A stretch of DNA of 64,000 bases from Mycolicibacterium porcinum (GTDB taxonomy: Bacteria; Actinomycetota; Actinomycetes; Mycobacteriales; Mycobacteriaceae), in contig MSTD01000007.1 in the NCBI GenBank assembly GCA_001942045.1, positions 44,399-108,398 on the forward strand, in the 5' to 3' direction. The notes below the pieces were generated by a model, which saw nothing but the letters and a program-made list of their open reading frames with translations, did no database searches and was not told the DNA's origin. Positions 9,877-48,780 of this stretch are shown piece by piece; within the stretch, counting starts at the first letter, position 1, and every line of letters begins with the position of its first letter. The position numbers and the translations under genes are program-made.

Positions 9877-10413
9877 TCACCTAGGTACCAGGTCGGCCCG
9901 CCGGTCGGCGAAGCCGCCGTAATCGCCGCGGTAGAACAGCAATGGCTTTCCGCCGTGGGCGTCGAGCGCCGTGACGTGGGCGACGGCGATGGTGTGGTCT
10001 CCGGCTCCGTGTTCGAACTCCAGGTCGGCTTCGATCGTTGCGAGCGTTCCGTGCAATCGCGGGGCCCCGTTGGCGGCCGGGCTCCATTCGACTCCCGCGA
10101 ACTTGTCGTCCGAGCGGCGTGCGAACTGTGCGCACACCGATTCCTGATGGTCGGCCAAGATACTGATGCACATCCGACCGCCGGCGCGAATCACCGGCCA
10201 CGTTGCCGAGCCTCGCGAAGGACAGAACGACACATACGGTGGATCCAGCGACACGGAGGTGATCGATTGGCAAGTGAAACCCACCGGCCGTCGCCCGTCC
10301 CGACCGGTGATCACAGCGATACCGGTGCAGAAGTGACCGAGCACCGTGCGCATGTCTTGCGGCCCCGGTCGCCGGGTTGTCGTACCGGGCGTCCCGGTGT
10401 TATCGAGCCCCAT
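9877..10413 (-). CDS. hsaB: Flavin reductase, HsaB-like component of a two-component flavin hydroxylase
   Basis: A 178-residue FMN-reductase-domain protein. GHFCTGIAVITG, PVGFTCQSITSVSLDPPYV and PLLFYRGDYGGF follow the pattern of HsaB, the NADH:FMN reductase that feeds reduced flavin to the 3-HSA hydroxylase HsaA. The matching oxygenase is encoded 28 kb away at 38391-39581. The ATG at 10413 has the strong site AGGAAGGA; an in-frame ATG at 10431 has none. It is divergent from the PadR gene, which may control it. Other partner oxygenases are possible. Confidence 0.75.
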   Translation of the reverse strand: MGLDNTGTPGTTTRRPGPQDMRTVLGHFCTGIAVITGRDGRRPVGFTCQSITSVSLDPPYVSFCPSRGSATWPVIRAGGRMCISILADHQESVCAQFARRSDDKFAGVEWSPAANGAPRLHGTLATIEADLEFEHGAGDHTIAVAHVTALDAHGGKPLLFYRGDYGGFADRRADLVPR

Positions 10414-10528
10414 TGCTGCGTCCTTCCTCATCTCGTGTTGTGAACCAGATTCGTCCAGCTGAGTGGGTCGCAGCAACGGAGGCTCCCGGCCAGCGGTTCA
10501 TCGGCATCGGCCTGGTGACCTCGATTGT

Positions 10529-10534
10529 TACGCT
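10529..10534 (+). promoter_or_regulatory. -10 element TACGCT of padR, probable leaderless start
   Basis: TACGCT fits the mycobacterial TANNNT consensus and ends six bases before the padR ATG, with no Shine-Dalgarno. This spacing places the transcript start at the start codon. GGTGACC, the core of the shared palindrome described at 16259-16275, lies just upstream at 10514-10520. Confidence 0.45.
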
Positions 10535-10540
10535 TGGGGC

Positions 10541-11215
10541 ATGGGTGACTCCGAGCAGACAGCCAAGCCGGCGCTGGCCGCGAATAGCTGGGCGCTGCTC
10601 GGGTTGCTGTCCTATGAGCAGGAACTCTCCGGCTACGACATTCGCAAATGGCTCGGCTGGAGCATGCGCTTTTACCATGGAAGCCCGGCCTTCAGCCAGA
10701 TCTACTCGGATCTGAAGAAGCTGGAGAAAATGGGTTACCTGACGTCGCGGGTGGACGGCACCGGGACGCGGAACCGTCGTCTCTACAAGATCACCCAGTC
10801 CGGTCTGGATGCTGTCACGCAGTGGGCCCGGGAGACACCGCCGGATCCTCCGTCGTTGAAGCACCCGGCGCTCATGCGGGTGACAATGGGCCATCTCAGT
10901 GACCCAGCCACGCTCAAGCAGATGCTCCAGGAGCATCTTGCCTATGTCGATGGGATGCAACGCGACGCGGCCAAGGAAGCTCGTTGGTCCGCGGCCGATC
11001 CGGCGTGGGCATACGCCAAGATCGCACTTGATTGGGCGGTTCGCTACTACGCGTCCGAGCGGGAACTCACCCTCCAACTGATCAAGGACCTCGACGAGGC
11101 TGAGGCCAACTTCCCCAAAGTCGGTGAAGGAGCCAAGATTCCTTGGCCAGATCCGGCGTATTGGTACGAAATCGAGAGGAAAGCCGACGCCGAGGACTTG
11201 GAAGGCACGGTCTGA
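10541..11215 (+). CDS. PadR-family transcriptional regulator
   Basis: A 224-residue PadR regulator. The N-terminal winged helix (about 15-100) reads NSWALLGLLSYEQELSGYDI then a Q(I)YSDLKKLEKMGYLTS recognition segment. The C-terminal Vir-like helical domain (about 110-200) would mediate dimerisation and ligand response. Start: the ATG at 10541, which seems leaderless; the 26 preceding in-frame codons would run into the divergent hsaB-like promoter. It sits between the flavin reductase and the kstD-like gene, and it probably regulates one or both. Confidence 0.82.
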   Translation: MGDSEQTAKPALAANSWALLGLLSYEQELSGYDIRKWLGWSMRFYHGSPAFSQIYSDLKKLEKMGYLTSRVDGTGTRNRRLYKITQSGLDAVTQWARETPPDPPSLKHPALMRVTMGHLSDPATLKQMLQEHLAYVDGMQRDAAKEARWSAADPAWAYAKIALDWAVRYYASERELTLQLIKDLDEAEANFPKVGEGAKIPWPDPAYWYEIERKADAEDLEGTV

Positions 11216-11219
11216 GGGC

Positions 11220-12923
11220 CTATTGCCTCGCGGCGTCGAGTGCGGCGATGTAGCCGTATACCAACCCCTGTGCGATGGTCGCGCCGGCGCCCGGATAGGT
11301 GCGTCCGAAGGCATTGGCGGCTGTGTTGCCGATCGCATAGAGCCCGTCGATCACCGTGCCGTCTTCGCGAAGCACGCGCGCGTGGTCGTCGGCGCGTAGG
11401 CCGCCGCAAGTACCAAGGTCGCTGAGCACCATCTTCACCGCGTAGTAGGGACCCTTGAAGAGTGGCCGCAGGTTCGGGTTCGGCGTGATCGTGGGATCGC
11501 CGTAGTAACGGTCGTAGGCACTGCGGCCCCGCTCGAAGTCGGGATCCTCTCCAGCGAAGGCATTTTCGTTGAAGCGGGCCACAGTCGACGTGAAATTCTC
11601 GACCGGAACCTGCATCTTGGTCGCCAGCTCCTCGAAGCTGTCCGCCTTGACGGCAATTCCGGCGTCATACCACGACTGCGGGACGGGCATGCGCGGAAAC
11701 AATTCGGCGGCGAACACATAGCTGTTGCGGTATTTCTGATCGAAGACGATCCACATGCTTTCCACGGGGGTGCCCGCAGCCTCGAGTTGGAGTACGCATT
11801 GCCCGAAGCTCATGTAATCGGCCGATTCGTTGGCGAATCGGTGACCGTTGTGGTCGACGATGAACGACCCGGGCAGCGACCGCTCGGCCAGCATCACCGC
11901 CGGGGCCGACCCCGGAAGCGGGGCAACGGCGGGGAACCACCAGGATTGATCCATCAAGGCGATGTCCGCGCCGACTTCCTGCCCCAACCGGATGGCGTCG
12001 CCCGTGTTCGATTCCGCGCCGAGGCTGAGATTGTTTTCGAGAGACTCGGATTGGAACTTGTGACGCATGTCCATGTGGTGATCGAAACCGCCCGCGGCGA
12101 GTATGACTCCACGCCGGGCGGTGACGGTGAACCGCTGTCCGCCGTGTTCCATGATTGCTCCGGTCACACGGCCATCCCCGGTGACCAGTTCGGTCAGTGA
12201 GGTTTCGAGCCAGATCGGGATCCCGGCACGGATCGCCCCGGCGAACAGGCCCGCCGCCAGCGCCTGACCACCGGCGGCGTAACGGCGCCCGAGAGCCAGG
12301 CCGCCGAGACCTTGCGCAAGCCGTTTGAGCACGGTGGGCAACCCCTTGCGGGGTACCCGGCTCATCAGGTTCAGCCAACGGTAATCGGCACCGGTGGTCG
12401 GCATCGGAATGCTGACCTCCATGACTCCGGGGCGCAGGTCAGGAAGGTATTCGCCGAGGATCGAGGTGTCGAGCGGACGGCATTCGCAGGTGCGGCCGGC
12501 CGCGGATCCACCTGGAGCCTCGGGGTGGTAGTCGGAGTATTCCTCGGCCCAGAACAGTTTCATCGGCGTGGTTCGACGCAGCATGTCGACCGTCGCAGGC
12601 AGGTTGTCCAGGTACGCCGCGGTACGCTGCTGCGGCGCCGAGTCCGCCACGACGGCATCGAGATAGGTCTGCGCGCGCCGCGAGGAATCAGCGCCGCCGC
12701 ATTCTTCGATCACCTGGCTGCCCGGCAGCCACAGTGCACCACCGGACCGGGCCGTCGAACCGCCTACGTACGACGACTTTTCGATGACGAGAACCGCCAG
12801 CCCCCGTTCATGTGCCGCCAGAGCGGCGGCGAGCCCGGTACCGGACCCGACGACGAGAAGGTCTACTTCCACGTCGGCAACGGTGAGTCCGGCGGGGATT
12901 GTCTTGTGGCTGGTGGTGGTCAC
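11220..12923 (-). CDS. kstD: 3-ketosteroid delta-1-dehydrogenase-like flavoprotein
   Basis: A 567-residue FAD-dependent dehydrogenase of the KstD family. The dinucleotide fold GSGTGLAAAL begins near residue 26, followed by GGSTARSGGALWLPG. Near the C-terminus TYPGAGATIAQG carries a Tyr-PGA-Gly spacing (Y543, G547) like the Tyr487/Gly491 that polarise the 3-keto group in KstD. KstD introduces the 1,2 double bond into ring A of 3-ketosteroids. The GTG at 12923 is preferred because the longest frame would overlap the divergent kshA start. Whether the substrate is a C19 ketosteroid or a side-chain-bearing one is open. Confidence 0.85.
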   Translation of the reverse strand: MTTTSHKTIPAGLTVADVEVDLLVVGSGTGLAAALAAHERGLAVLVIEKSSYVGGSTARSGGALWLPGSQVIEECGGADSSRRAQTYLDAVVADSAPQQRTAAYLDNLPATVDMLRRTTPMKLFWAEEYSDYHPEAPGGSAAGRTCECRPLDTSILGEYLPDLRPGVMEVSIPMPTTGADYRWLNLMSRVPRKGLPTVLKRLAQGLGGLALGRRYAAGGQALAAGLFAGAIRAGIPIWLETSLTELVTGDGRVTGAIMEHGGQRFTVTARRGVILAAGGFDHHMDMRHKFQSESLENNLSLGAESNTGDAIRLGQEVGADIALMDQSWWFPAVAPLPGSAPAVMLAERSLPGSFIVDHNGHRFANESADYMSFGQCVLQLEAAGTPVESMWIVFDQKYRNSYVFAAELFPRMPVPQSWYDAGIAVKADSFEELATKMQVPVENFTSTVARFNENAFAGEDPDFERGRSAYDRYYGDPTITPNPNLRPLFKGPYYAVKMVLSDLGTCGGLRADDHARVLREDGTVIDGLYAIGNTAANAFGRTYPGAGATIAQGLVYGYIAALDAARQ

Positions 12924-13025
12924 GGGCGTTGACGATAAATGTGCGGTCGACAGTCCTGAATCCAACCTCCTGTTGAGCGGAACACCGACCTTCCGGTGCA
13001 CCTGTAGGCGCAGTTCAATGGGGCC

Positions 13026-14171
13026 ATGACGACGCACTCAGATACCGACGAAATTCGGTTGATCGAGGCCGGTTCGGTACCCACCAGGTTCGCCCGCGGT
13101 TGGCATTGCCTGGGACTGATCCGTGACTTCGGCGATGGAAAGCCGCATCAGATCAACGCATTCGGGCAGAAGCTGGTGGTTTTCCGGGGTGAGGACGGCT
13201 CCATCAACGTGCTCGATGGGTACTGCCGGCACATGGGCGGAGATCTCTCGCAGGGGACGGTGAAGGGCAATGAAATCGCTTGTCCGTTCCACGATTGGCG
13301 GTGGGGTGGTGACGGTCGCTGTAAGAACGTGCCGTACGCCAAGCGCACACCGCGTCTGGCCCGTACTGCTGCCTGGCCCACACTCCAACAGGACGGCATG
13401 CTGTTCGTCTGGAACGACCCCGAGCGCAAGGCGCCTCCCGCCGATGTGACGATCCCGCGCATCGAGGGAGCCACCAGTAGCGGGTGGACGGACTGGCACT
13501 GGTACACCACGGTGGTCAACACCAACTGCCGCGAGATCATCGACAACGTCGTCGACATGGCACACTTCTTCTACATCCACGGTTCGCTTCCCACGCACTT
13601 CAAGAACATCTTCGAAGGCCATGTCGCGACCCAGTACATGAAGAGTGCCGGTCGGCCCGACCTCGGTGACCCCGAGGGGCCCAAGATGCTCGGCACCACC
13701 TCATTGGCGTCCTACCACGGACCGTCGTTCATGATCGACGATCTGACCTACCACTACCAGGAGTTCGACCAGCGCACGGTGTTGATCAACTGCCATTACC
13801 CGATCGACGCCAATTCATTTGTGCTGCAGTACGGCATCGTGGTGGAGAAAAACGCGGCGATGCCGGAGGAACTCGCCATGGAGACCGCGATCGCGCTCGG
13901 CGATTTCGTGGAGATGGGATTCGAGCAAGATGTCGAGATCTGGCGCAACAAGACCCGGATCGACAATCCACTGCTCGTCGAAGAGGACGGACCGGTCTAT
14001 CAGCTCAGGCGCTGGTACGAGCAGTTCTATGTCGACGCGGTGGACGTCACGCCGGACATGGTGGACCGCTTCGAGTTCGAGCTGGACACCACCCAGCCGT
14101 ATGAGGCCTGGATGAGGGAAGTGGAAGCCAATCTGGCCGCCCGCGCTGCCACCTCCCGGCCGGTGGGATGA
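13026..14171 (+). CDS. kshA: Rieske oxygenase component, 3-ketosteroid 9alpha-hydroxylase KshA-like
   Basis: A 381-residue Rieske non-heme iron oxygenase. The 2Fe-2S ligands are C67, H69, C86 and H89 (CRH...CPFH), and the mononuclear iron ligands are H180 and H185 in VVDMAHFFYIH plus a distal Asp. Length and the EIIDNVVDMAHFFYIHG segment match KshA, which hydroxylates C9 and, with KstD, breaks ring B. Its reductase partner is probably the KshB-like protein at 39682-40746. It is divergent from kstD; TTCAAT lies six bases before the ATG and could be a -10 for a leaderless transcript. Confidence 0.9.
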   Translation: MTTHSDTDEIRLIEAGSVPTRFARGWHCLGLIRDFGDGKPHQINAFGQKLVVFRGEDGSINVLDGYCRHMGGDLSQGTVKGNEIACPFHDWRWGGDGRCKNVPYAKRTPRLARTAAWPTLQQDGMLFVWNDPERKAPPADVTIPRIEGATSSGWTDWHWYTTVVNTNCREIIDNVVDMAHFFYIHGSLPTHFKNIFEGHVATQYMKSAGRPDLGDPEGPKMLGTTSLASYHGPSFMIDDLTYHYQEFDQRTVLINCHYPIDANSFVLQYGIVVEKNAAMPEELAMETAIALGDFVEMGFEQDVEIWRNKTRIDNPLLVEEDGPVYQLRRWYEQFYVDAVDVTPDMVDRFEFELDTTQPYEAWMREVEANLAARAATSRPVG

Positions 14172-14469: not shown

Positions 14470-15069
14470 CTACCTCTTCAGGAGGCTGACGGTACGGGCG
14501 AGCCGTTCTGACAGTTCGCCCACAGAGATGCGCCGCTGCGCGAATGCGGCGACGTTCGCCATCCAGACGTCGGAGAGTATTTCGGCGGCGCCGGTTTCCC
14601 TCGCGGCTGCATTTCCCTCATCGACGGAGCCAATGAAGATCCGGACTGTCTGCTGTCGCACCAGATCGGCTTGGATCGCCGCAGTGCCGTCTGCGTAAAG
14701 GTAGGGCCGGATCATCGCCTCGGCCAATTGCGTTGACGCGCAGAGCCTATTGGTGAGGGTCAGGGCGACCCGCAGCAGGCGCTGAAACGGGTCCGTTTCG
14801 TCGGCGACTCCGCGGTACTCCGTTTCGAAATCCCACAGCCATTCGTAGAAGCACGCGAGCAGCAGCTCATCCTTCGACGGGAAGTACTGGTACACAGTGC
14901 CGGCCGACATGCCGGCCGCTGCGGCGACTGAACGGATCTGGCACGAGTCATAGCCCAGGACCGCCAGTTCCGTCGCGGCCGCGATGATTCGATCACGCCG
15001 TTGGCCTCGCCGTGAGTGGATACTCGTTGTCTGCACGTCGGGCTCGGGATGGGAGAGACTGCGCAACAC
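14470..15069 (-). CDS. TetR-family regulator
   Basis: A 199-residue TetR protein. The helix-turn-helix (about 20-65) includes RRDRIIAAATELAVLGYDSCQIRSVAAAAGMSAG, here named by its ends only: GYDSCQIRSVAAAAG and TVYQYFPSKDEL. The C-terminal part is a typical variable ligand domain. The GTG at 15069 has AAGGAG six bases upstream; the frame continues far upstream without a plausible start. It lies downstream of the unknown 309-residue protein on the same strand with a 143-bp gap that contains a hairpin and the near-palindrome GAGCACGGGTGTTCTC (15131-15146). Confidence 0.85.
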   Translation of the reverse strand: MLRSLSHPEPDVQTTSIHSRRGQRRDRIIAAATELAVLGYDSCQIRSVAAAAGMSAGTVYQYFPSKDELLLACFYEWLWDFETEYRGVADETDPFQRLLRVALTLTNRLCASTQLAEAMIRPYLYADGTAAIQADLVRQQTVRIFIGSVDEGNAAARETGAAEILSDVWMANVAAFAQRRISVGELSERLARTVSLLKR

Positions 15070-15165
15070 TGCCCACTCCTTAGGTACGCGTGTTCGGGCA
15101 ACGAGAAGGCTAAGCCGGGACTGACAGTTTGAGCACGGGTGTTCTCGCTGACCGGACAGTCGTGT

Positions 15166-15212: not shown

Positions 15213-16142
15213 CTATGTGGATGACACCGGCATGATCGGAATCTTCTTCATCGCGCTGGCCCGAGGATCTGGTGCCGCGGCCGCGGCCGCGTGGTTCTCT
15301 TCTCCTCTGGTGTACGTCCACACGCAGAAGGGCTCGCCTTCGGCGAACTTGAAGTCCTTGGGTGGCAGGTTGATGGCGAGCTTGCAGCCCGGAAAGAAGG
15401 GCGCCGAAATACGTTGCTCGAAAGTGCAATTCATCCATGCGCGCGCCGGTGGGTAGAGGCCCTCATCGGTGTATTTCTGGAGCACCTCACAGCGGCGCAT
15501 GTTCAAGACCACGTGATCGGGGTTGTACACGATGTACTCGCCGCCATAGCCCAGAGTCCCATCGATACTCAGCACCGCCAGCTTGAGGAAATCTACGACG
15601 TGGACGGGCTCGATCTTGAAGACCTTCGCCAGCTTCGGGTACTGGTAGTCGATGATGAGCTGGTACATGTCGGGCAACCCGAGCCAGACCTCTTCCTCGG
15701 GGATGATCTTTGTCCACTGGTCGATGAAGTAGTTGTGGCCCTTGAGATACTGATCCCAGTAGGTCTTGATCAGGCGAATCAATGCGGGCTTCGTGAGGTC
15801 TTCGGTCTGCACGTCGAACGGGATGGCTTGGTACTGGGCGTTCTTCCAGTCCCAGCCCGGAGGCGCGATGAACCGTCCCATTGGCATCACCTGCCGCATG
15901 CCGGCCCGGGAGACCTCCGCGGCAATGTCCATGGCCGCGTTGATGCCGACCTTCTGTGAGTAGATCTGGACGTGGGCGTAGGGGACGAAGTTCAGCACGT
16001 CTTCGAACACCTTGGCCAAGCCGAGAAGAAAATCACGCGAGAAGTCTTGGATGTTACCGACTTTGCCCATGAAGTCGTGGGTGTAATCGTCGTAGTTGAG
16101 TTCCTCGCCCTCGGCGGTGAGGCCTTCGGTTTCCGTTGTCAT
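15213..16142 (-). CDS. Conserved protein of unknown function (309 aa)
   Basis: I do not recognise this protein. It is 309 residues, acidic at the N-terminus, without signal peptide or membrane segments, rich in Tyr, Trp and Phe, and ends in an Ala-rich tract (about 285-292). Conserved-looking stretches include PPGWDWKNAQYQAIPF, YGGEYIVYNPDHVVLNMRRC and CTFEQRISAPFFPGCK; the Cys residues at the latter two could bind metal. A strong AGGAGG precedes the ATG at 16142. Its promoter region is packed with TGGCAG palindromes shared with the divergent tetR gene, so it is probably that regulator's main target. Confidence 0.75.
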   Translation of the reverse strand: MTTETEGLTAEGEELNYDDYTHDFMGKVGNIQDFSRDFLLGLAKVFEDVLNFVPYAHVQIYSQKVGINAAMDIAAEVSRAGMRQVMPMGRFIAPPGWDWKNAQYQAIPFDVQTEDLTKPALIRLIKTYWDQYLKGHNYFIDQWTKIIPEEEVWLGLPDMYQLIIDYQYPKLAKVFKIEPVHVVDFLKLAVLSIDGTLGYGGEYIVYNPDHVVLNMRRCEVLQKYTDEGLYPPARAWMNCTFEQRISAPFFPGCKLAINLPPKDFKFAEGEPFCVWTYTRGEENHAAAAAAPDPRASAMKKIPIMPVSST

Positions 16143-16258: not shown

Positions 16259-16275
16259 CTCCCGGTGACCGGGAG
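16259..16275. promoter_or_regulatory. 17-bp palindrome with CCGGTGACCGG core
   Basis: CTCCCGGTGACCGGGAG is a perfect palindrome about one central G, 79 bases before the tetR ATG. The same core recurs in the gaps at 21747-21759 and 40823-40833, and partly at 48857-48868. Confidence 0.5.
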
Positions 16276-16994: not shown

Positions 16995-17438
16995 CTAGCC
17001 GCCGAAGATCTCCAGTGACCCGACGTACGCCCGGTTGGCTTTGATTCGTTCCGCGATGCGCCACCGGCCGTCGACGTCTCGCCGCCAGGTGTCGTGGTAG
17101 TCGCCCATTGTGTAGAAGCGGGTCGACGGGTCGCCGGCTGAATTCAGATGAACGTCTCGGATGTAGGCCTTACTCGTGGCGGTGTCTTCGAGGACGTCGA
17201 TGACAACGTTGCCCAGCAGATGCTGAGTGGGCCCGCAGTTGTCGAGGAAACCGCGAATCATGTCGATGATCGCCGCGGCTCCCACCAAGCGCCCGGTCCC
17301 GAAATCGCCTTCCGCGTCGGGAAAGAGAATCTCGGCCATCGTCGCCCAGTCCCGAGCGTCCATCGCGCGGGCAAAGATATTCAGCGCCCGTTCGATGTCT
17401 CGCTCATCGCGCATCACTCGCAGGGCGACTGAATCCAC
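16995..17438 (-). CDS. NTF2-fold (SnoaL-like) protein
   Basis: A 147-residue SnoaL/NTF2-like cone fold, recognised by ERALNIFARAMDARDWATMAEIL and the closing DVDGRWRIAER segment. The fold includes delta5-3-ketosteroid isomerase, polyketide cyclases and scytalone dehydratase. A catalytic role on a steroid or aromatic intermediate is plausible but unproven. It is the last gene of the long minus-strand operon, 21 bases after the SDR. The GTG at 17438 lies eight bases after AAGGAG; another GTG at 17444 is too close to that site. Confidence 0.75.
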   Translation of the reverse strand: MDSVALRVMRDERDIERALNIFARAMDARDWATMAEILFPDAEGDFGTGRLVGAAAIIDMIRGFLDNCGPTQHLLGNVVIDVLEDTATSKAYIRDVHLNSAGDPSTRFYTMGDYHDTWRRDVDGRWRIAERIKANRAYVGSLEIFGG

Positions 17439-20359: not shown

Positions 20360-20360
20360 T

Positions 20361-40878: not shown

Positions 40879-42492
40879 GTGAGCAGTGGATCGAAGAGCG
40901 TTGTGGATGTGGTGGTGGTCGGCGCGGGCTTCGGTGGCCTGTACGCGCTGCACAAGTTCCGGTCGCAGGGAATGTCGGTGCGGGTCTTTGAGGCCGCGCC
41001 TGAAGTGGGTGGCACCTGGTACTTCAACCGCTACCCCGGCGCCCGGTGCGACGTCGAGAGTGTGGACTACTGCTACTCGTTCTCCGAAGAGCTCCAACAA
41101 GAGTGGACGTGGACCGAGAAGTACGCCACGCAAGGAGAGATTCTCCGATACATCAACTGGGTCGCCGACAAGCTCGACCTACGCCGGGACGTCACCTTCG
41201 AGACCAGGGTGACTGCGGCGGTACTCGACGAGCAGAGGCTGCGCTGGCGCATCACCACCGACACGGGCGAAACTGTCGACGCGAGGTTCGTGGTGATGGC
41301 CACCGGCCCGCTGTCGGCGGCCATGACACCCGACTTTCCGGGTCTGGATACCTTCGGCGGGGAGGTCTACCACACCGCCCACTGGCCGCATGAGGATGTG
41401 GATTTCACCGGAAAGCGCGTCGCTGTGATCGGCACCGGATCGTCAGGAATACAGTCGATTCCGATCATCGCTGAACAGGCCGAACAGCTCTACGTGTTTC
41501 AGCGGACGCCCAACTACAGTGTGCCGGCGGGTAACCGGCTGCTGACTGCCGACGAGATTGCCGATATCAAGGCCAACTACGCCGAGCGCCGCCGGATGTC
41601 CTGGCGGAGCGGCGGCGGTTCGCCGCATGTGCCGCACCCCAAGCTGACCATGGACGCTACGCCCGAGGAACGGGAGCAGGCGTTCGAAAAGCGTTGGGCA
41701 CTGGGCGGAGTGCTGTTCTCGAAGACTTTCAGCGACCAGATGATCTCGCTGGAGGCCAACGAAGAAGCTCGTAAGTTCTACGAGACCAAGATTCGTGCCG
41801 TGATCGATGATCCGAACGTGGCCGAATTGCTGATACCCGACGATCATCCGATCGGCACGAAGCGGATCTGCACCGACACCAATTACTTTCAGACGTTCAA
41901 CCGGAGCAATGTCCGGCTGGTCAGCGTCCGCAACACTCCCATCGAGTCGATCGATGACACCGGAATCAACACCTCCGACGCGCATTACGACATCGATGCG
42001 TTGGTGCTGGCCACCGGATTCGACGCGATGACCGGCACGCTGGCCAAGATCGACATCGTGGGCCGCGGCGGCGAGAAGCTGGTCGACGACTGGGCGCACG
42101 GGCCGCGCACCTATCTCGGACTGGGCACCGACGGCTTCCCCAACCTGTTTCTGGTATCGGGTCCCGGGGCGCCGGCTGTGTTGGCGAACATGGTGTTGCA
42201 TGCCGAAGCGCATGTGAACTGGATCGCCGATGCCATCGACTATCTGGACCGTCATGGCTACGCCGCGATCGAGCCCACACCCGAGGCCGTGAACAGCTGG
42301 ATCACCGAGTGCGCACAACGGGCCGAAGCGACGCTGTTCACCAGAGCGAACTCGTGGTACATGGGTGCCAACGTGCCCGGCAAGCCTCGGATGTTCATGC
42401 TGTTCATCGGGGGCTTCGGGGTGTACCTCGAGATCTGTGACGATGTCGCGGCGGCCGGGTACAAGGGATTCGATCTGCTGAAGGTGCGGTAG
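40879..42492 (+). CDS. Type I Baeyer-Villiger monooxygenase (cyclohexanone/steroid-monooxygenase type)
   Basis: A 537-residue FAD/NADPH monooxygenase with GAGFGGL at 15-21, the Baeyer-Villiger fingerprint FGGEVYHTAHWP at 159-170 and the NADPH motif GTGSSG. Length and layout match CHMO, CPDMO and steroid monooxygenases. It inserts oxygen beside a ring ketone to give a lactone. The GTG at 40879 fits a leaderless start. It leads a six-gene operon with two SDRs, an F420-type oxidoreductase, an NTF2-fold protein and a Dabb-like protein. Confidence 0.9.
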   Translation: MSSGSKSVVDVVVVGAGFGGLYALHKFRSQGMSVRVFEAAPEVGGTWYFNRYPGARCDVESVDYCYSFSEELQQEWTWTEKYATQGEILRYINWVADKLDLRRDVTFETRVTAAVLDEQRLRWRITTDTGETVDARFVVMATGPLSAAMTPDFPGLDTFGGEVYHTAHWPHEDVDFTGKRVAVIGTGSSGIQSIPIIAEQAEQLYVFQRTPNYSVPAGNRLLTADEIADIKANYAERRRMSWRSGGGSPHVPHPKLTMDATPEEREQAFEKRWALGGVLFSKTFSDQMISLEANEEARKFYETKIRAVIDDPNVAELLIPDDHPIGTKRICTDTNYFQTFNRSNVRLVSVRNTPIESIDDTGINTSDAHYDIDALVLATGFDAMTGTLAKIDIVGRGGEKLVDDWAHGPRTYLGLGTDGFPNLFLVSGPGAPAVLANMVLHAEAHVNWIADAIDYLDRHGYAAIEPTPEAVNSWITECAQRAEATLFTRANSWYMGANVPGKPRMFMLFIGGFGVYLEICDDVAAAGYKGFDLLKVR

Positions 42493-43295
42493 TGACGGGT
42501 CTGGCGGACAAGGTCGTCCTGGTCACCGGCGCGGGCGGTGGTACCGGGCGCGTGCATTGTGAGCGTTTCGCCGACGCCGGAGCTGACGTGATCGCGCTCG
42601 ACCGCTCGGAGGCGGCAGACGGCCTCCGCGAGACGGCCGAGCGGGTCCGGCAGCGCGGCAGACGATGTGTCACCGGGCTGGCCGATATCAGCATTCTCGC
42701 CGACGTCACGGCTGCGGTGGACGCGGGAGTCCGGACGTTCGGCCGCCTCGACGTCATCGTCGCCAATGCGGGCACCCACACGCCGAACCGCCCGACGTGG
42801 GAGATCACCAGCCAAGAGTGGCAACGCAATCTGGACATCAACCTCACCGGGGTCTGGCACACCGTCAAGGCCGGCGTTCCCCACCTCGGCACCGACGGAG
42901 GGTCGGTGGTGATCATCAGCTCCACCAACGGTTTACGCGGCACTGCCGGCACGGCGGCCTACACCGCCGGCAAGCATGCGGTGGTAGGCCTGGCCCGTAC
43001 GCTGGCCAACGAGCTGGGACCACAACGTATCCGGGTCAACACTGTGCACCCGGGGGCGGTCGCCACACCGATGGTGCGCAATCCCGAGGCCTACAAGCGG
43101 TTGCGGCCAGATCTGGACGACCCCACCGAGGCCGACGCGATCGAGGTCCTCACTGCCCGCAACCTGCTTCCGGTGCCGTGGGTCGAACCCGTCGATGTGG
43201 CCAACGCCGCCCTCTTCCTGGCCTCCGATCAAGCCCGCTACATCACCGGGACACAACTCGTGGTCGACGCCGGCCTCACCCAGAAGACGGCATGA
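42492..43295 (+). CDS. Mycofactocin-type SDR dehydrogenase
   Basis: A 267-residue short-chain dehydrogenase: TGAGGGTGRVHCERFADAGADVI (ends TGAGGGTG and GADVI), YTAGK active site, and the C-terminal stretch YKRLRPDLDDPTEADA then NLLPVPWVEPVDVANAALFL (ends NLLPVPW and VANAALFL). This C-terminal insert is the mark of the mycofactocin-coupled SDR family (TIGR03971-like), which carries a non-exchangeable NAD reoxidised by mycofactocin. It would oxidise an alcohol to the ketone used by the upstream Baeyer-Villiger enzyme; the genes overlap by one base. Confidence 0.84.
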   Translation: MTGLADKVVLVTGAGGGTGRVHCERFADAGADVIALDRSEAADGLRETAERVRQRGRRCVTGLADISILADVTAAVDAGVRTFGRLDVIVANAGTHTPNRPTWEITSQEWQRNLDINLTGVWHTVKAGVPHLGTDGGSVVIISSTNGLRGTAGTAAYTAGKHAVVGLARTLANELGPQRIRVNTVHPGAVATPMVRNPEAYKRLRPDLDDPTEADAIEVLTARNLLPVPWVEPVDVANAALFLASDQARYITGTQLVVDAGLTQKTA

Positions 43296-43328
43296 CCGGA
43301 CCGCTGAGGAACAACGCTAGGAGCAACA

Positions 43329-44123
43329 GTGACTGATTTGGCCAAGTACGGGCCGTGGGCGGTGATCGCCGGAGGTTCGGAAGGAGTCGGCGCCGAGTTC
43401 GCCCACCAACTCGCCGAAGAGGGGTTCAACCTGGTACTCATCGCCCGTAAGCCCGGGCCGTTGACCGACACCGCCGACCGGTGCCGTGAGCTAGGCGCCG
43501 AGGTGCGCGCGATATCGGTGGACCTGCTTGATCCGCAGTCGGTCTCGCGGATCGCCGAGGGCACAGCCGATCTCGACGTGGGCCTGCTGATCTACAACGC
43601 CGGCGCCAGTACGTGCAACGAGTTGTTCCTCGACACCGACCTCTCCGAGTTCCAGAAGGTCACCGACCTCAACGTGACTCGCATGCTTGAGATGCTGCAG
43701 CACTACGGAAGATTGATGGCCGACCGAGGCAGCGGCGGAATCTTGATCGTCGGCTCGCTGTCGGGGTACATGGGCGCCTGGCGGCACTCCATTTATGCCG
43801 GGGCCAAGGCGTTCTCCCGGATGTTCGCCGAAAGCCTGTGGCTGGAGCTGCGTGAGCGCAATGTCGACGTCCTCGAGCTGGTGTTGGGTGTGACGCGTAC
43901 GCCGGCGATGGAGCGCGTCGGGCTGAATTTCGACGCTCCCGGGATCCTCGTCAACGAGCCTGCCGAGGTAGCCGCCGAGGGCCTCGAGCATCTGGCGGAC
44001 GGCCCGGTATGGGTGGCCGGCGGCAACGCGGACCGCGCCGAAGCCAACAGTGCACCGGATCGAAGCCGCGTGGTGCTGGAAACTCATCGGGCAATCGCGG
44101 CGCTCATCGCGGGGGCGCACTGA
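43329..44123 (+). CDS. SDR-family oxidoreductase
   Basis: A 264-residue short-chain dehydrogenase related to the 17-beta-HSD12/KAR-like group: AGGSEGVG cofactor loop (Gly-rich but without the TG), YNAG in place of NNAG, and Tyr/Lys in YAGAK. Arg after strand two (LIARK) points to NADP(H). GTG start at 43329 with AGGAGC four bases upstream. Third gene of the plus-strand operon. Substrate unknown; a ketone or 3-keto group is likely. Confidence 0.82.
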   Translation: MTDLAKYGPWAVIAGGSEGVGAEFAHQLAEEGFNLVLIARKPGPLTDTADRCRELGAEVRAISVDLLDPQSVSRIAEGTADLDVGLLIYNAGASTCNELFLDTDLSEFQKVTDLNVTRMLEMLQHYGRLMADRGSGGILIVGSLSGYMGAWRHSIYAGAKAFSRMFAESLWLELRERNVDVLELVLGVTRTPAMERVGLNFDAPGILVNEPAEVAAEGLEHLADGPVWVAGGNADRAEANSAPDRSRVVLETHRAIAALIAGAH

Positions 44124-44125
44124 CC

Positions 44126-44974
44126 GTGCGGATGGGCCTGTCGACGCCTGTGGTGGTACAGGTTCCGGGTGTCGCGTCGGCTTGGGAGGCCGAAGCCGGG
44201 ATCGACGATCTGGCCCGGATCGCGGATGTGGCCGATAACCTCGGGTTCGACTACCTGACTTGTTCAGAGCACGTCGCCATTCCGTCGGCCGACGCCGCCA
44301 CGCGCGGGGCGGTGTACTGGGATCCGCTGGCCACCCTGGGTTTCCTTGCCGCGCATACTCGACGGATCCGGCTCGCCACGTCGGTTCTCGTTCTCGGATA
44401 TCACCACCCGCTGGAGATCGCCAAACGCTACGGAACCCTGGACCGGGTCAGCGCGGGCCGCCTGGTTCTCGGCGTCGGAATCGGGTCTCTCACAGAGGAA
44501 TTCGATCTTCTCGGCGCGGCCTGGTCAGGAAGGGCCGCACGAGCCGACGATGCCCTTCGCGCATTGCGGGCGTCGTTGTCCACCGCGACGCCGCGCTACC
44601 ACGGGACGTTCTACGACTTCCAGGGTATGACGGTGCTTCCTCACGCCGAGCAGTCGCAGGTGCCGATCTGGGTCGGCGGTCGCAGCGCCGGATCATTGCG
44701 CCGGGCCGTCGAGCTGGCCGACGGCTGGATGCCGATCGGCTTGTCATCGCGAGAGGTGCGCGACCTGCTCGCCGCCGTCGATCTGCCCGCTGGATTCGAG
44801 GTACTCCTCTCGGCGAGCGTCGATCCCGAAGCCGATCCGGTGGGTACCCGGGCGCATCTCGCGACCCTTCGTAGTGCGGGCGCCACCGCGATCACCTACG
44901 CGGTACGCGCCGACAATGCGCACCATTACTGCGACCAACTCGCCCGGTTGCGTGACATTCAGGAGAAACAATGA
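44126..44974 (+). CDS. Luciferase-like (F420-dependent) oxidoreductase
   Basis: A 282-residue LLM-domain protein (TIM barrel without insertions): IADVADNLGFDYLTCSEHVAIP, LGFLAAHTRRIRLATSV, LVLGVGIG and VPIWVGGRS. In mycobacteria this type normally uses coenzyme F420H2 rather than FMN, and it oxidises or reduces alcohols, ketones or C=C bonds. GTG 44126 and ATG 44132 are both possible starts. It lies two bases after the SDR stop. Confidence 0.82.
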   Translation: MRMGLSTPVVVQVPGVASAWEAEAGIDDLARIADVADNLGFDYLTCSEHVAIPSADAATRGAVYWDPLATLGFLAAHTRRIRLATSVLVLGYHHPLEIAKRYGTLDRVSAGRLVLGVGIGSLTEEFDLLGAAWSGRAARADDALRALRASLSTATPRYHGTFYDFQGMTVLPHAEQSQVPIWVGGRSAGSLRRAVELADGWMPIGLSSREVRDLLAAVDLPAGFEVLLSASVDPEADPVGTRAHLATLRSAGATAITYAVRADNAHHYCDQLARLRDIQEKQ

Positions 44975-45465
44975 GTACTGAACAGGAGATTCTGACCCGG
45001 CTGCAACGCCTCGAGGACGAATTGGCCATCGCGAAACTCCTCGCCTCATACGGCCCGTCAGTCGATGCCGGCAATGCCGACCGCGCAGCCGCGCTGTGGG
45101 CGAACGACGGCACATACGATGTCGAGGACTGGATGATGGCGGGTCGACGAGGCGTGCGCGAGATGGTCAGTTCGGCCGGCCACCAGGACCTGGTGGCCAA
45201 TGGCTGCTGCCATTTTCTCGGGCCGGCCGTGGTCACCGTCGACGGCGACAGCGCCGTCGCAGTATGCGAATCGCTGGTTCTGTTACGCGATGGCGAGAGT
45301 GGCTATCGAGTGTGGCGGGCGACCGCCAACCACTTCACGCTGGAACGTCTTGACGGGCGATGGCAGATAATGACCCGCACCAGCAGGTTGCTCAACGGCA
45401 ATCCGTACGCACATACCCTGCTCAACCTCGGACTGGCTGGAACAGCTGTCCCCGAACAGATCTGA
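44971..45465 (+). CDS. NTF2-fold (SnoaL-like) protein
   Basis: A 164-residue SnoaL-like protein: DELAIAKLLASYGPSVDAGNADRAAALW, the DGTYDVEDW strand with acidic residues in the cone, and ANHFTLERLDGRWQIMTRTSR. Proteins of this type (for example limonene-epoxide-hydrolase and dehydratase relatives) often sit in catabolic operons and may isomerise or dehydrate. ATG overlaps the upstream stop by four bases. Function not determined. Confidence 0.76.
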   Translation: MSTEQEILTRLQRLEDELAIAKLLASYGPSVDAGNADRAAALWANDGTYDVEDWMMAGRRGVREMVSSAGHQDLVANGCCHFLGPAVVTVDGDSAVAVCESLVLLRDGESGYRVWRATANHFTLERLDGRWQIMTRTSRLLNGNPYAHTLLNLGLAGTAVPEQI

Positions 45466-45474
45466 GAGATCGGC

Positions 45475-46251
45475 ATGTCTGCTTCCGAGTGTCCGTTGGT
45501 ATTCTTCTCCTTCGTCGCCCTGGACGAGGGCGGACCAGAAGAACACCGGCGCTACAACGAATGGCATCAACTCGACCATCGGCCGGAGAACCTCGCATTA
45601 CCCGGTATCGCTTGGGGTGACCGGTGGAGTCGCCCCACCGCGTTCCGGGAAATGTCAACGGCCGAACCCGAACAAGCCGATACCGACTACGTGGCGATGT
45701 ACTGGTTCCGTCCTCCGGTCGGGCAATCGGTGCGCGCGTGGGAACAACTCGGCGCCGACTCGTTCCAGTGGGGTCGCGGACCCATGATTCCCGGCGTGCG
45801 CCGCACGGTGTTGGCTTTCTTCCGGCCGGTCAAGGGCTACGCGGCAGCCTCGGCGCTGGTATCGCCTGGCGTCATCCCGTACCGGCCCAACCGCGGTCTG
45901 CACCTGACGATGACCCGGTTCACCGAACCCTACGGCGCCGATGCTCACGAGCACCACCAATGGGAGGACCGGGTGGCGATTCCCGCATTGTTGGATGTCG
46001 ATGGTGTGGCCGGGGCGTGGACGTTCACACTGGATCATCATCAGAACAATGGGCTCGGTCTCCGCTCCGTGGCGGCCGCAGATCCACCCGGCGGACTGCG
46101 GATTCGGCTGCTCTACCTCGACGACGACCCGGTCCGTGTCACCGGACTCATCGGTGAATGCTTGAAGCGGAACGACTCTGGCGCACCGGCGACCGGAGCA
46201 TGCGTCATCGAGACGCCGCTGAGAACGATCGTTCCCTGGCAGGACTGGTGA
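45475..46251 (+). CDS. Dabb/EthD-like ferredoxin-barrel protein
   Basis: A 258-residue protein with two alpha/beta-barrel-like repeats. The first has VFFSFVALDEGGPEEHRRYNEWHQLDHRPE (ends VFFSFVA and NEWHQLDHRPE), a YNEWHxxDH pattern common to EthD/Dabb proteins; the second starts near RGLHLTMTRFTEPYG. Last gene of the plus-strand operon, nine bases after the NTF2-fold gene. It may act on a polycyclic intermediate. The convergent iclR stop is 35 bases away. Confidence 0.65.
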   Translation: MSASECPLVFFSFVALDEGGPEEHRRYNEWHQLDHRPENLALPGIAWGDRWSRPTAFREMSTAEPEQADTDYVAMYWFRPPVGQSVRAWEQLGADSFQWGRGPMIPGVRRTVLAFFRPVKGYAAASALVSPGVIPYRPNRGLHLTMTRFTEPYGADAHEHHQWEDRVAIPALLDVDGVAGAWTFTLDHHQNNGLGLRSVAAADPPGGLRIRLLYLDDDPVRVTGLIGECLKRNDSGAPATGACVIETPLRTIVPWQDW

Positions 46252-46286: not shown

Positions 46287-47138
46287 TCACCGGCCTCCGA
46301 CCGCTAGCACAGCGGCCTCGGCGGTTCGATGGATCATGGCGGGCGTCACCGCGCGATGCGCCGCGCGTACTTGTCTGGCGCCGTTGCGTGGCACGCTGGA
46401 CAGGCTGTGGCAGATGGCCCACGCTGCGCTGTGTACGGCGGCGGCGACGGGTTCGATGCGAGTGGTCCTCGTTGGTCCGCACAGCGACAACGCGAACCGG
46501 TTGCCACCCTCGCTCACTCCGATGGGGGCTGCCACGACGGTGACGCCCAACTCGCAACCCTCGGCGTCGACGGCGACGCCGCCACGGGCGCGCACGGTGG
46601 CCAGGTTTCGATCGAGCTCTGCCCGGTTCCGAATGCCGTATGGCGACGTCACCGCATACCGCAACTCCGGCCAGACTGACTCGTCGAGCTGCGCCAGCAG
46701 AGCCCGCCCGGCCGCGCTCTGCTCGAGGGGCTGTTTGGATCCGACCTGCCAACAATTGCCTTGGCTGGGCCACCCACCGAAGCGTTCGATATGCAGCACG
46801 TGCGTGTCCGCGAGGACGCTCAGATGTGCCGTCAGGCCGGTGCGCCGGTGCAGGTCCGCCATCACCGGCAGGGCTGCTTCGGGGATCCGACGCTGCCGTA
46901 CTGCCTGGCTGCCGAGTTCGAACATCCTCAGTCCGAGAGCGTATTTGGCGCCTTGACGTTCAACCCAACCCAGCTGCACCAGGCCCTGGAGGATGCGATG
47001 AGCTGATGAGCGGGGCACGTTTGAATACCGGCTGATCTCCGCCAGTGAGAGCGCTTGTCGTGCACCGAAGACGTCGAGAAGTGAAGCCACCCGATCGAGC
47101 ATCGCTATGGGAGTTCCGTCGTCGTTCGATGTTGGCAC
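46287..47138 (-). CDS. IclR-family transcriptional regulator (paralogue of 34966)
   Basis: A 283-residue IclR protein: LSLAEISRYSNVPRSSAHRIL (ends LSLAEIS and SSAHRIL), then MADLHRRTGLTAHLSVL and the effector domain with SAAGRALLAQ. The GTG at 47138 has GGAGG four bases upstream; the frame runs on over the promoter but has no better start. It is homologous to the IclR at 34966-35817. It is convergent with the second BVMO operon and divergent from tetR; TGTCAC-AAC-GTGACA (47171-47185) lies 33 bases upstream. Confidence 0.86.
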   Translation of the reverse strand: MPTSNDDGTPIAMLDRVASLLDVFGARQALSLAEISRYSNVPRSSAHRILQGLVQLGWVERQGAKYALGLRMFELGSQAVRQRRIPEAALPVMADLHRRTGLTAHLSVLADTHVLHIERFGGWPSQGNCWQVGSKQPLEQSAAGRALLAQLDESVWPELRYAVTSPYGIRNRAELDRNLATVRARGGVAVDAEGCELGVTVVAAPIGVSEGGNRFALSLCGPTRTTRIEPVAAAVHSAAWAICHSLSSVPRNGARQVRAAHRAVTPAMIHRTAEAAVLAVGGR

Positions 47139-47170
47139 CACACCTCCATGCCTGTCATACTCTGCATATG

Positions 47171-47185
47171 TGTCACAACGTGACA
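47171..47185. promoter_or_regulatory. Palindrome TGTCACAACGTGACA between iclR and tetR
   Basis: Six-base arms around AAC; an outer inverted pair CCTGTCA (47151-47157) and TGACAGG (47181-47187) repeats the TGTCA half-site. It may be an IclR or TetR operator. Confidence 0.5.
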
Positions 47186-47264
47186 GGTGTGAGTCTAGGC
47201 ACATTCCCGCTGCGAAGTAAAGGAGGCCACGTGCCTCACGGCCTGTTGCACGGACAATCATCGA

Positions 47265-47927
47265 ATGCCCAGAGGTAAGGGGCCGACGCTCACCGAGCGT
47301 CGCGCTGAAGAATTGCGGCTCGATATCGCCAGGACCGCATGCGATATCTTCATCGCCGACGGAGATACCACGGCGACCGTGGAGCGCATCTGCGCCGAGG
47401 TGGGCATCGCGACGCGTACGTTCTACCGCCACTTCCCGGTCAAAGAAGACGTCCTGGGGCCATTGTTCCGGCGAAGCGAGAACAATATGCGCGGTCTATT
47501 GTCCTGCGCTGCAGCGGATTCGGACCCGGTAGACGTGCTCGTCGATATGTTCACAGTCGAAGTCCGGCACCGGCAGTCGGCCGGCGCCCAGCATCGGCAG
47601 TCGGTAGAGACCGCTCGGAAACTGATGGCGCTCGTTGCCGAGACACCGCAGTACCGCTTGCGATGGATGGAATGGAGCGAGAACCTTGCCGACGCCATCA
47701 CCGAGTTCCTGGCGCGGCACTTCGATTTGGGTGACGACGCGTTCATGCGCGCACTGCCGAGCAGGTTGATCGTCCACGTCAGCAGTAACGCGTACATCTG
47801 GTGGACCGACGCCAAGGAACCGCACGAACTTGACGAGCTCATCGCGGCGCACCGGTCTGGCATCGGCATGGTGCTGGCCGGTCTCCAGCGGTTGGACGTC
47901 AGTCGCCTCGTGTCAGGAACGTCGTAA
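47265..47927 (+). CDS. TetR-family regulator (paralogue of 16354)
   Basis: A 220-residue TetR protein: LTERRAEELRLDIARTAC, helix-turn-helix with ATVERICAEVGIATRTFYRHFPVKEDVL (ends ATVERIC and RHFPVKEDVL), and an effector domain with TPQYRLRWMEWSENL. Similar from end to end to the protein at 16354-16968, which implies duplication. No ribosome site precedes the ATG; GACAAT ends six bases upstream and fits a leaderless promoter. Its end overlaps the convergent hsaD by 29 bases. Confidence 0.85.
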   Translation: MPRGKGPTLTERRAEELRLDIARTACDIFIADGDTTATVERICAEVGIATRTFYRHFPVKEDVLGPLFRRSENNMRGLLSCAAADSDPVDVLVDMFTVEVRHRQSAGAQHRQSVETARKLMALVAETPQYRLRWMEWSENLADAITEFLARHFDLGDDAFMRALPSRLIVHVSSNAYIWWTDAKEPHELDELIAAHRSGIGMVLAGLQRLDVSRLVSGTS

Positions 47928-48780
47928 CCACCGACTCGAAGGCGGATTTCGCCTCGATCATGGCCCAGTGCCCGCAGTTCGGAAACACATGAAGTTCCGC
48001 GTTGGGGATCGTGCGCATCGGAATCAGGGCCATGTCAAGAGGACTCACGCGATCGTCGCGTCCCCACGTCAACAACGTCGGCGCCGCCACCTTGTGCATC
48101 CTGGCCCATGGCATGGGCAGATCCGAAGCCGCCATGGCCGCCGTCATCGCCGCGAACGCGGCCTTGCCGTACATTCGACGCGCGGCGGCCAACGTCTCGG
48201 GATCGGTCGCCAGGGTCCAGCGCTCCTCGATGAGTTCATCGGTGACCAGCGACTGGTCATAGACCATGGACCGCAACCAGGCGACCAGGCGCGCACGCGT
48301 CGGGTCCTCGGTGAACTCCTGGAGTAGGCGGATACCCTCGCTGGGACCGGGGGAGAAGATCGTCGTGCCGATCCCGCCGATCGTCACCAGGCGACCGACC
48401 CGGTCCGGCGAGTCGATCGCTGTATTGATACCGACACCGCCGCCCATGGAATTGCCGACGATGTCCACTCGTTCGACCCCGAGGGCATCGAGGAACGGCG
48501 TGACCGCTCCCTGCGCAGTGACCATGGGGTGTCCGCCCCAGTCATCGGAGACGCCGAAGCCGGGGAATTCCAGAACCAGACACCGGAAGTTCTCGGCGAA
48601 CGTCGGCAGCACGCCGCGGAAGTTGCGCCATCCCGTGACGCCAGGACCCGAACCGTGCAGGAACAGCACGGTCGGACCAGTGCCGACGTCGTAGTAATGA
48701 AGTGCGCCCGCGCTCGTCCGGACCTCGCGTAAGGCGTCGGGCGCACAGGTGTGATGGGTGACCGAAGCAGATTGCGACAC
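47899..48780 (-). CDS. hsaD: C-C bond (meta-cleavage product) hydrolase, HsaD-like
   Basis: A 293-residue alpha/beta hydrolase: oxyanion HGSGPG (42-47), nucleophile S111 in GNSMGGG, Asp242/243 in GRDDRV and H271 in NCGHWAM. These positions agree with HsaD (Ser114, Asp241, His269) and BphD. HsaD hydrolyses the C-C bond of the meta-cleavage product made by HsaC. GTG start at 48780 with an AGAAGA ribosome site. It is divergent from the mce operon across 237 bp. The only other hsa genes here are at 37-39.6 kb. Confidence 0.88.
   Translation of the reverse strand: MSQSASVTHHTCAPDALREVRTSAGALHYYDVGTGPTVLFLHGSGPGVTGWRNFRGVLPTFAENFRCLVLEFPGFGVSDDWGGHPMVTAQGAVTPFLDALGVERVDIVGNSMGGGVGINTAIDSPDRVGRLVTIGGIGTTIFSPGPSEGIRLLQEFTEDPTRARLVAWLRSMVYDQSLVTDELIEERWTLATDPETLAAARRMYGKAAFAAMTAAMAASDLPMPWARMHKVAAPTLLTWGRDDRVSPLDMALIPMRTIPNAELHVFPNCGHWAMIEAKSAFESVVTTFLTRGD

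Follow-up and report, generated by a model that had tools for sequence, protein, structure and literature searches.

A steroid ring-opening gene cluster of Mycolicibacterium porcinum, probably orthologous to the C-19+ cluster, with a shared operator-like palindrome and a steroid monooxygenase homologue

The gene cluster described here lies on contig MSTD01000007.1 (positions 44,399 to 108,398) of the Mycolicibacterium porcinum assembly GCA_001942045.1; this stretch of 64,000 nucleotides, numbered from its first letter, is indicated as the window. A codon-usage script called 62 genes in it, which were named by comparison with NCBIfam, Pfam and PDB. Between 9.9 and 48.8 kb, distributed over at least six transcription units, homologues of all eight steroid ring-opening functions are found, in agreement with a sequence-only reading of the same DNA, which had placed KstD, a delta-4(5alpha)-dehydrogenase, KshA, KshB and HsaA, B, C and D within 39 kb. 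The HsaB-like flavin reductase (9877..10413, minus strand, its start taken by eye as the ATG at 10413) scores 137.9 bits for Flavin_Reduct and, on a shortened call, 86 bits for the HsaB model, the cut-off being 230. KstD, of the KstD2 type (11220..12923, minus), exceeds the PRK12845 cut-off (1066 bits; cut-off 793) and is 66–91% identical in relatives. KshA, of the KshA2 type (13026..14171, plus), features a Rieske CxH..CxxH motif and scores 301 bits for KshA_C and 620 bits against PDB 4qdf. The delta-4(5alpha)-3-ketosteroid dehydrogenase (36006..37472, minus; 735 bits against PDB 4at0) is followed by the HsaC-like extradiol dioxygenase (37469..38377, minus; 293 bits against PDB 2zi8), the HsaA-like oxygenase (38391..39581, minus; 547 and 294 bits against PDB 2or0 and 3afe) and a reductase (39682..40746, minus; 238 bits for a PaaE-type model with a cut-off of 421), named KshB2 by family and position. 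The HsaD-like hydrolase lies at 47899..48780 (minus).

HsaA, HsaC and HsaD all miss the NCBIfam equivalog cut-offs (358 of 450, 361 of 450 and 289 of 400 bits, respectively), which marks them as paralogues of the canonical enzymes. H146, H213 and E264 of the HsaC-like protein stand at the expected metal-ligand positions, and the HsaD-like one contains a GNSMG motif with candidate D and H residues. As the sequence-only reading had it, the set is intermixed with Baeyer-Villiger monooxygenases (BVMOs; there are two), a FadE pair, FadD, an alcohol and an aldehyde dehydrogenase, to which EchA has to be added; the same stretch also holds two LipP1-like esterases, several short-chain dehydrogenases/reductases (SDRs) and six regulator genes (PadR, three TetR, two IclR). 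HsaE, HsaF, HsaG and thiolases, also reported there as missing, are not found among the best 25 model matches of each of the 51 proteins scanned out of 62 (38 genes at 9.9–48.8 kb and 13 flanking ones). A mce operon, eight genes long, adjoins the HsaD end (49018..58290, plus) and is part of the same cluster; MlaE is found on its first gene and Mce4_CUP1 on the third, the other six being named by position, which gives a tentative composition of two YrbE and six Mce genes. The operon, the PadR gene and the nearness of one BVMO to steroid monooxygenase had not been listed in the earlier reading.

Nearly the whole cluster is common to M. porcinum (on two contigs), M. setense and M. houstonense; in the latter two, insertions of some kilobases precede the delta-4(5alpha)-dehydrogenase. 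Contig 21 of M. neoaurum ATCC 25795, which carries the HsaC orthologue, keeps the window order from the 4HBT gene to HsaD; several window regulators and SDRs are not found on this contig, which ends on both sides. From the M. litorale F4 cluster the TetR gene at 14470, the SnoaL-SDR pair (17–18 kb) and the 43–48 kb genes except HsaD were not recovered. Where the stretch reaches, the place of the mce operon varies: it adjoins HsaD in M. porcinum, M. setense and M. houstonense, and lies on the KstD side of the clusters of M. litorale and the M. smegmatis-like genome G081. HsaC matches of at least 70% identity occur in 66 of 118 genomes sampled from the genus; among the matches listed, the next ones are at most 52% identical, except for one second copy at 64%. 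Since nearly identical gene order recurs in other species, chance assembly of the gene set is excluded. In three genomes (G009, G057, G097) HsaA, HsaC and BVMO2 are present in two copies about 10 kb apart within one cluster, indicating that the ring-opening core is sometimes duplicated.

These comparisons tie the cluster to a known one. According to PMC5962712, M. neoaurum ATCC 25795 carries KstD2 and KstD3 in a second cluster, a homologue of C-19+ in M. smegmatis. Contig 21, which has two KstD genes and thus one more than the window, may be taken as that locus. The seven genes named as critical in PMC6351609 are kstD2, kstD3, kshA2, kshB2, hsaA2, hsaC2 and hsaD2; the KshB2, HsaA2, HsaC2 and HsaD2 paralogues share one block in the window and in the clusters compared. 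Table 1 of PMC5270728 gives MSMEG_2867 and MSMEG_2869 as KstDs of 522 and 558 aa, MSMEG_2870 as a KshA of 386 aa and MSMEG_2893 as a KshB of 351 aa, and reports these kstD and ksh genes as lacking both a KstR operator and induction by cholesterol. In G081 the block contains mce, 4HBT, a KstD of 522 aa, PadR, a KstD of 558 aa, a KshA of 386 aa and, further on, a KshB of 353 aa, BVMO2 and HsaD. The KstD-PadR-KstD-KshA neighbourhood (522, 558 and 386 aa for the enzymes) is therefore complete in G081, while the window has PadR-KstD-KshA, the extra KstD of the 522-aa type being absent. The MspA of G081 is identical to that of M. smegmatis at 181 of 184 residues; G081 accordingly stands in for that species, without being taken for it. 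Another genome, G346, was rejected as M. smegmatis for want of a close HsaA match. With the gene order taken from G081, the likeness to C-19+, whose range in M. smegmatis we take to be MSMEG_2851–2901, extends to the mce operon, the KstD region, PadR, KshA, KshB, the HsaA, HsaC and HsaD paralogues and the lack of a KstR operator. The window differs by the missing second KstD next to PadR, by the mce operon at the HsaD end and by the delta-4(5alpha)-dehydrogenase beside HsaC.

The second of the two BVMOs, BVMO2 (40774..42492, plus), points to the substrates. It is closest to the steroid monooxygenase of PDB entry 4aos, presumably from Rhodococcus rhodochrous, with 824 bits (636 for phenylacetone monooxygenase) and 354 of 533 aligned residues identical (66%); both share the BVMO fingerprint FxGxxxHxxxW, which reads FGGEVYHTAHWP in BVMO2, whose activity is putative. 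According to PMC12239570, the Rhodococcus enzyme makes testosterone acetate from progesterone, and lactonisation of androstenedione is given there as not observed. BVMO2 is also linked to the ring-opening genes. In a sample of 201 genomes of the family, 83 have a BVMO2 match (E <= 1e-190) and 107 a HsaA match (E <= 1e-130). The linkage count took in BVMO2 matches up to E 6.4e-200 (79 of the 83 genomes) and 92 HsaA matches from 82 genomes, the weaker of which were chosen for genomes with a BVMO2 match; 3 of the 79 have no listed HsaA. For the 76 genomes compared, the two genes are within 35 kb on the same contig in 62, on different contigs in 12 and further apart in 2.

Fifteen stretches of 20 kb from other family members, picked as having HsaA and BVMO2 within about 8 kb and here called compact clusters, were analysed as well. 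In all of them KshA, HsaA and HsaC form one compact run; a LipP1-type esterase is nearby in 8, and in three (L136, L137, L139), with matched genes alone considered, monooxygenase, esterase and SDR stand next to one another. The 66% identity of BVMO2 to steroid monooxygenase and its linkage to HsaA in 62 out of 76 genomes suggest that the cluster takes C21 20-ketosteroids beside C19 steroids, the former feeding into the latter. A comparable arrangement, likened here by its description, is the pdc progesterone cluster of Caenibius tardaugens: this cluster of another lineage, described as small in PMC12239570, combines a BVMO and a luciferase-like monooxygenase (LLM) beside regulators and yields testosterone acetate for the 9,10-seco route. 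Elsewhere in M. porcinum (G001:C81:229691-234452), a 67% relative of BVMO2 is found about 2 kb from a 43% relative of HsaA, perhaps a further steroid set.

The scattered units have in common a predicted operator, the 17-bp palindrome TTCCCGsTnAsCGGGAA. The first clue came from exact TCCCG-N5-CGGGA palindromes common to window promoters. With up to three mismatches, the first consensus has 21 matches in the window, 6 of them non-coding, the highest non-coding number among 210 permuted half-sites (the next being 5). Inverted repeats with 6-base arms were then counted in 39 promoter gaps taken from three other clusters, those of M. litorale, M. neoaurum and G081, against a background of gene bodies: registers of one and the same palindrome rank among the top motifs, TTCCCG-N5-CGGGAA occurring in 8 gaps (0.47 expected) and CCCGCT-N1-AGCGGG in 11 (0.86 expected). 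By z-score, two unrelated repeats rank first and third, each present in 5 gaps: AAGGCA-N2-TGCCTT, for which 0.01 occurrences are expected in the 39 gaps of these clusters, and CTGTGA-N6-TCACAG. A matrix trained on the three clusters only was finally applied to the window, where non-coding DNA accounts for 8.2%: 9 of the top 10 matches, 11 of the top 13 and 12 of the top 20 are non-coding, while 200 column-permuted matrices place on average 0.76, and at most 5, of their top 10 there.

Within the window, sites are located in the KstD/KshA gap (12967..12983, score 14.5), upstream of the TetR gene at 14470 (15142..15158, 12.7), between the gene at 15213 and the following TetR gene (16259..16275, 18.8; same place in M. 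porcinum, M. houstonense, M. setense and M. litorale), between the small FadE and SnoaL genes (21752..21768, 16.5), between FadD and BVMO1 (28908..28924, 15.1), between Dabb and the old-yellow-enzyme-like reductase, or OYE (32805..32821, 15.4), upstream of the HsaA-HsaC-dehydrogenase operon (39647..39663, 18.9), as a pair between KshB and BVMO2 (40791..40836, 14.0 and 17.9), between HsaD and mce (48897..48913, 16.8) and downstream of the mce genes (59855..59871, 14.7). Conservation was evaluated at a site score of at least 12, in gaps of 30–500 nt with both flanking genes found and with the training loci L025 and L032 excluded; the loci are related, and hence not independent. A site is present at FadD/BVMO1 in 44 of 44 loci, at Dabb/OYE in 43 of 46, upstream of HsaA in 58 of 59, in the KshB/BVMO2 gap in 56 of 57 and at HsaD/mce in 9 of 11. 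No site of this score was found in the 47 gaps upstream of the IclR gene, in the 20 OYE/esterase gaps, convergent ones in which a promoter would not be expected, or in coding segments matched to the gaps, one for each. Considering the best four sites per stretch, all 15 compact clusters have one upstream of KshA. Judged by title, no paper listed in a literature search deals with this operator.

The common palindrome, and its recurrence at the same promoters in relatives, argue that the dispersal of the units is only apparent: the earlier description of the set as dispersed is right in that there are six units or more, and misleading as a label, given the conserved order, the shared palindrome and the compact KshA-HsaA-HsaC run in 15 out of 15 clusters. 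The units may thus be co-regulated. Candidates for the regulator are PadR (10541..11215, plus; PadR 35 bits), present in six clusters compared, and IclR. In the 2018 work on C-19+, constitutive mutants reportedly map to a PadR-like gene, the cluster being said to be expressed only on loss of a PadR-type repressor, which fits PadR; IclR is the more constant neighbour, with a match in all 15 compact clusters (four just 38–45% identical), as compared with 10 for PadR. PadR is accordingly kept beside IclR as a candidate. One IclR gene lies with a LipP1-type esterase (394 bits, above the cut-off of 350) at 34046..35811 (minus). Upstream of this IclR gene, at 35849-35879, an inverted repeat of perfect symmetry (15+1+15), ACAGGCATATGACTA-T-TAGTCATATGCCTGT, was noticed by eye, likely the site of a separate regulator. 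The other regulators are a TetR weakly similar to KstR (14470..15069, minus; 118 bits, cut-off 280), not found in the M. litorale, M. neoaurum and G081 clusters, a TetR at 16354..16968 (plus), and a second IclR (minus) and third TetR (plus) at 46287..47927. At 16200-16214, next to the TetR gene at 16354, the divergent promoter contains a perfect palindrome, TGGCAGAATCTGCCA, also seen by eye.

KstR and KstR2 recognise operators with the cores AACnnGTT and CAAGnnCTTG. The former occurs nine times in the window, never in the promoter regions listed above, and the latter is absent from the window; both were therefore rejected as the shared operator. Compared with the hsaACDB, kshA and kstD genes of the canonical KstR regulon, the cluster encodes the same enzyme families and reactions in a different order, with promoters lacking the KstR core. 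Its proteins are also distant from their other copies, HsaC being at most 52% identical and HsaA 39–43% (33% for a weak one). In relatives, these are not the only such genes of the genome: more distant HsaA matches, mostly at 39–43%, exist besides the cluster copy, and more divergent KstD copies are located elsewhere; in four genomes (G001, G002, G003, G005) such a KstD gene, 43–45% identical to that of the window, has one HsaF match at a distance of about 3 kb. A HsaF gene near KstD is the canonical arrangement. The HsaF-type domain DmpG_comm is present in 7 of the 7 genomes searched, with no match inside the cluster stretches fetched (none from G346). This bears out the earlier proposal of a second ring-opening set which has no lower pathway of its own and can feed the main one; for the window's own genome, the relatives indicate that the set could feed a lower pathway encoded elsewhere. 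At G003:C1:4154795-4155974 and G005:C1:2604859-2606036, the match to a second HsaA relative falls into two adjoining parts, which looks like an interrupted reading frame.

Taken together, the region from about 9.3 to 58.3 kb is probably the orthologue of the M. smegmatis C-19+ cluster: a second steroid regulon, independent of KstR, which would also handle C21 steroids and be served by one operator. The C-19+ identity follows from the order and content matched on M. neoaurum contig 21 and from the protein lengths of G081, which correspond to MSMEG_2867, 2869 and 2870. A number of points weigh against this reading. The identification goes through G081 and published gene lengths, and not directly through the M. 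smegmatis genome; beside HsaC, G081 has no delta-4(5alpha)-dehydrogenase, just a 32% relative elsewhere in the block. At the M. houstonense cluster neither a neighbouring BVMO2 nor the mycofactocin SDR was found, a 69% BVMO2 match being located about 40 kb from KshB. As to the operator, 15 of the 21 window matches to the simple consensus fall in coding sequence, and the window sites were already known when the consensus used to seed the matrix was drawn up. Sites with one mismatch number 17–28 per genome in four genomes (reversed control, 0–4): the palindrome was accordingly rejected as exclusive to the cluster, and the regulator may have other targets. As to the substrate, a BVMO sequence is no proof of it, and PMC12239570 attributes the use of progesterone by M. 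smegmatis with the cluster derepressed (there ADD+, with the 2018 work as source; a personal communication) to the LLM gene MSMEG_4862. This gene lies, as we assume, outside the C-19+ range; BVMO2 offers a putative alternative for this activity.

A pathway may be proposed on these grounds. The Mce proteins would import the steroid, and SDRs together with the delta-4(5alpha)-dehydrogenase would set up the 3-keto-4-ene. With 20-ketopregnanes, BVMO2 would insert oxygen between C17 and C20, converting progesterone into testosterone acetate, from which an esterase would free testosterone, to be oxidised by an SDR to androstenedione. KstD and KshAB would make and open the 9-hydroxy-dienone; HsaAB would then hydroxylate, HsaC cleave the aromatic A ring and HsaD hydrolyse the product, the released fragments passing to HsaEFG and a KstR2-type lower pathway encoded elsewhere. 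FadD, FadE, EchA, the alcohol and aldehyde dehydrogenases and BVMO1 could act in one of two ways, by clearing an oxidised side chain or in oxidation following D-ring lactone formation. The units would be co-regulated by binding of a cluster regulator, PadR or IclR, to the 17-bp palindrome. Gene families, conserved order, steroid monooxygenase linkage and conserved palindrome are observed; substrates, order of reactions, transport, regulator, co-regulation and induction are what we infer from them. A stronger form, slightly less probable than its opposite, is that C-19+ is at root a regulon for pregnanes (C21 20-ketosteroids), widely distributed through the family, in which steroid monooxygenase, esterase and SDR supply the KstD/Ksh/Hsa set with C19 steroids made from progestogens, with all units and a dedicated mce importer under one palindrome through PadR or IclR; in that case, the natural inducer of the cluster would be a pregnane. 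The cluster is not of an undescribed kind, the additions made here being the route for C21 substrates and the common operator. The earlier interpretation is supported in part. The "unusual steroid or other polycycle" which it proposed as substrate may be narrowed, by PMC5962712 to C19 steroids and by gene content to C21 20-ketosteroids that feed into them.

The significance is in part practical: PMC5962712 suggests that strains producing steroid drugs from sterols might yield more once clusters of the C-19+ type are deleted, and PMC10672877 describes the natural activation of such clusters as not established. A common operator would account for scattered genes behaving as a single regulon and, together with the embedded progesterone-type monooxygenase, opens the way to direct and cheap tests of the cluster's purpose and trigger.

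The alternative that survives best, although unlikely, is a cluster for C19 steroids only (androstenedione, testosterone), with BVMO2 and the esterases in side functions such as D-ring lactone formation. In its favour, KstD, KshA and the Hsa enzymes act on C19 skeletons. PMC5962712 also describes C-19+ as apparently needed for efficient use of C19 steroids. The nearest relative of BVMO2, however, is an enzyme acting on progesterone, without lactonisation of androstenedione in the account of PMC12239570; BVMO2 is linked to HsaA across the family; and PMC10672877 says that the cluster is not activated by phytosterol or C19 steroids. Degradation of a non-steroid polycycle, such as a diterpenoid or hopanoid, is far less probable. 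The HsaC-like protein does pass a biphenyl-diol dioxygenase model (382 bits, cut-off 366), and HsaA, HsaC and HsaD stay below their equivalog cut-offs; KstD, on the other hand, is above its own, KshA and the delta-4(5alpha)-dehydrogenase are near solved steroid enzymes, a steroid monooxygenase homologue is present, and the homologous cluster is reported as active on C19 steroids (PMC5962712). Least probable of all is a redundant, KstR-controlled back-up of cholesterol catabolism, for which the KstR-like TetR gene and the data of PMC4881515 might speak (the mce genes MSMEG_2854–2861 listed as induced on cholesterol versus glycerol, and a slight rise in the reads of MSMEG_2867 and 2869 on steroids, from RNA sequencing without biological replicates, with which quantitative reverse-transcription PCR agreed for most genes, not for MSMEG_2869), while the TetR is far under the KstR cut-off and not found in three clusters, the promoters have no KstR core, the homologous kstD and ksh genes are reported as free of KstR operators and induction (PMC5270728), and the other HsaC copies are deeply diverged.

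The remaining genes of the cluster are as follows. A 4HBT thioesterase-like protein (9270..9848, minus; Pfam), adjoining in relatives, marks the left edge of the conserved block. The 309-aa protein at 15213..16142 (minus) belongs to no Pfam or NCBIfam family and has just 30 relatives in 5.8 billion proteins, one named uroporphyrinogen decarboxylase by its source and one from Nitrospirillum. A SnoaL-like protein, an SDR and a conserved 358-aa protein without a family in the NCBIfam and Pfam scans occupy 16995..19335 (minus); the latter (18259-19335), which has no Pfam domain, counts 1056 relatives, including one from Sphingomonas and one from a gammaproteobacterial metagenome-assembled genome, with His, Asp and Trp residues invariant across 48 aligned sequences. 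A LipP1-like esterase (GDSAG; 288 bits, cut-off 350), an SDR and a SnoaL-like protein follow (19379..21709, minus), and then the small and large FadE, a two-gene acyl-CoA dehydrogenase by NCBIfam (21778..23951, minus). The large subunit is nearest to PDB 6wy9 (148 bits) and 4x28 (132 bits), which we take to be two-subunit steroid acyl-CoA dehydrogenases. EchA, an aldehyde dehydrogenase, a zinc alcohol dehydrogenase and FadD are encoded at 23936..28882 (minus); in a comparison with the Rhodococcus cholate cluster that covered CasG, one of its side-chain genes, FadD scores 268 bits for the CasG model, the cut-off being 750. BVMO1, of 641 aa, is followed by an SDR (28968..31777, plus); its first GxGxxG is at residue 148, indicating an N-terminal extension. 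The block formed by FadD, the FadE pair, EchA, the two dehydrogenases and BVMO1 is conserved; its probable role, the least certain step of the pathway, is either in taking off an oxidised side chain or in an attack on the D ring. A Dabb-domain protein (31786..32763, minus; Pfam) and the OYE (32858..34069, plus) are found next. Beyond BVMO2, the plus strand encodes a mycofactocin-type SDR, another SDR and an F420-type LLM oxidoreductase (42492..44974), and then a SgcJ-like protein and one without family (44971..46251).

On the KstD side, at 150-8019, the cluster is adjoined by a catabolic cluster of the sugar-alcohol type, composed of a Dak1/Dak2 kinase, an SDR, a xylose-isomerase-like protein, a major facilitator superfamily transporter, a split transketolase and GntR. 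From 608 on, it is 95–100% conserved in M. porcinum; it was not found beside the steroid cluster in the other relatives compared.

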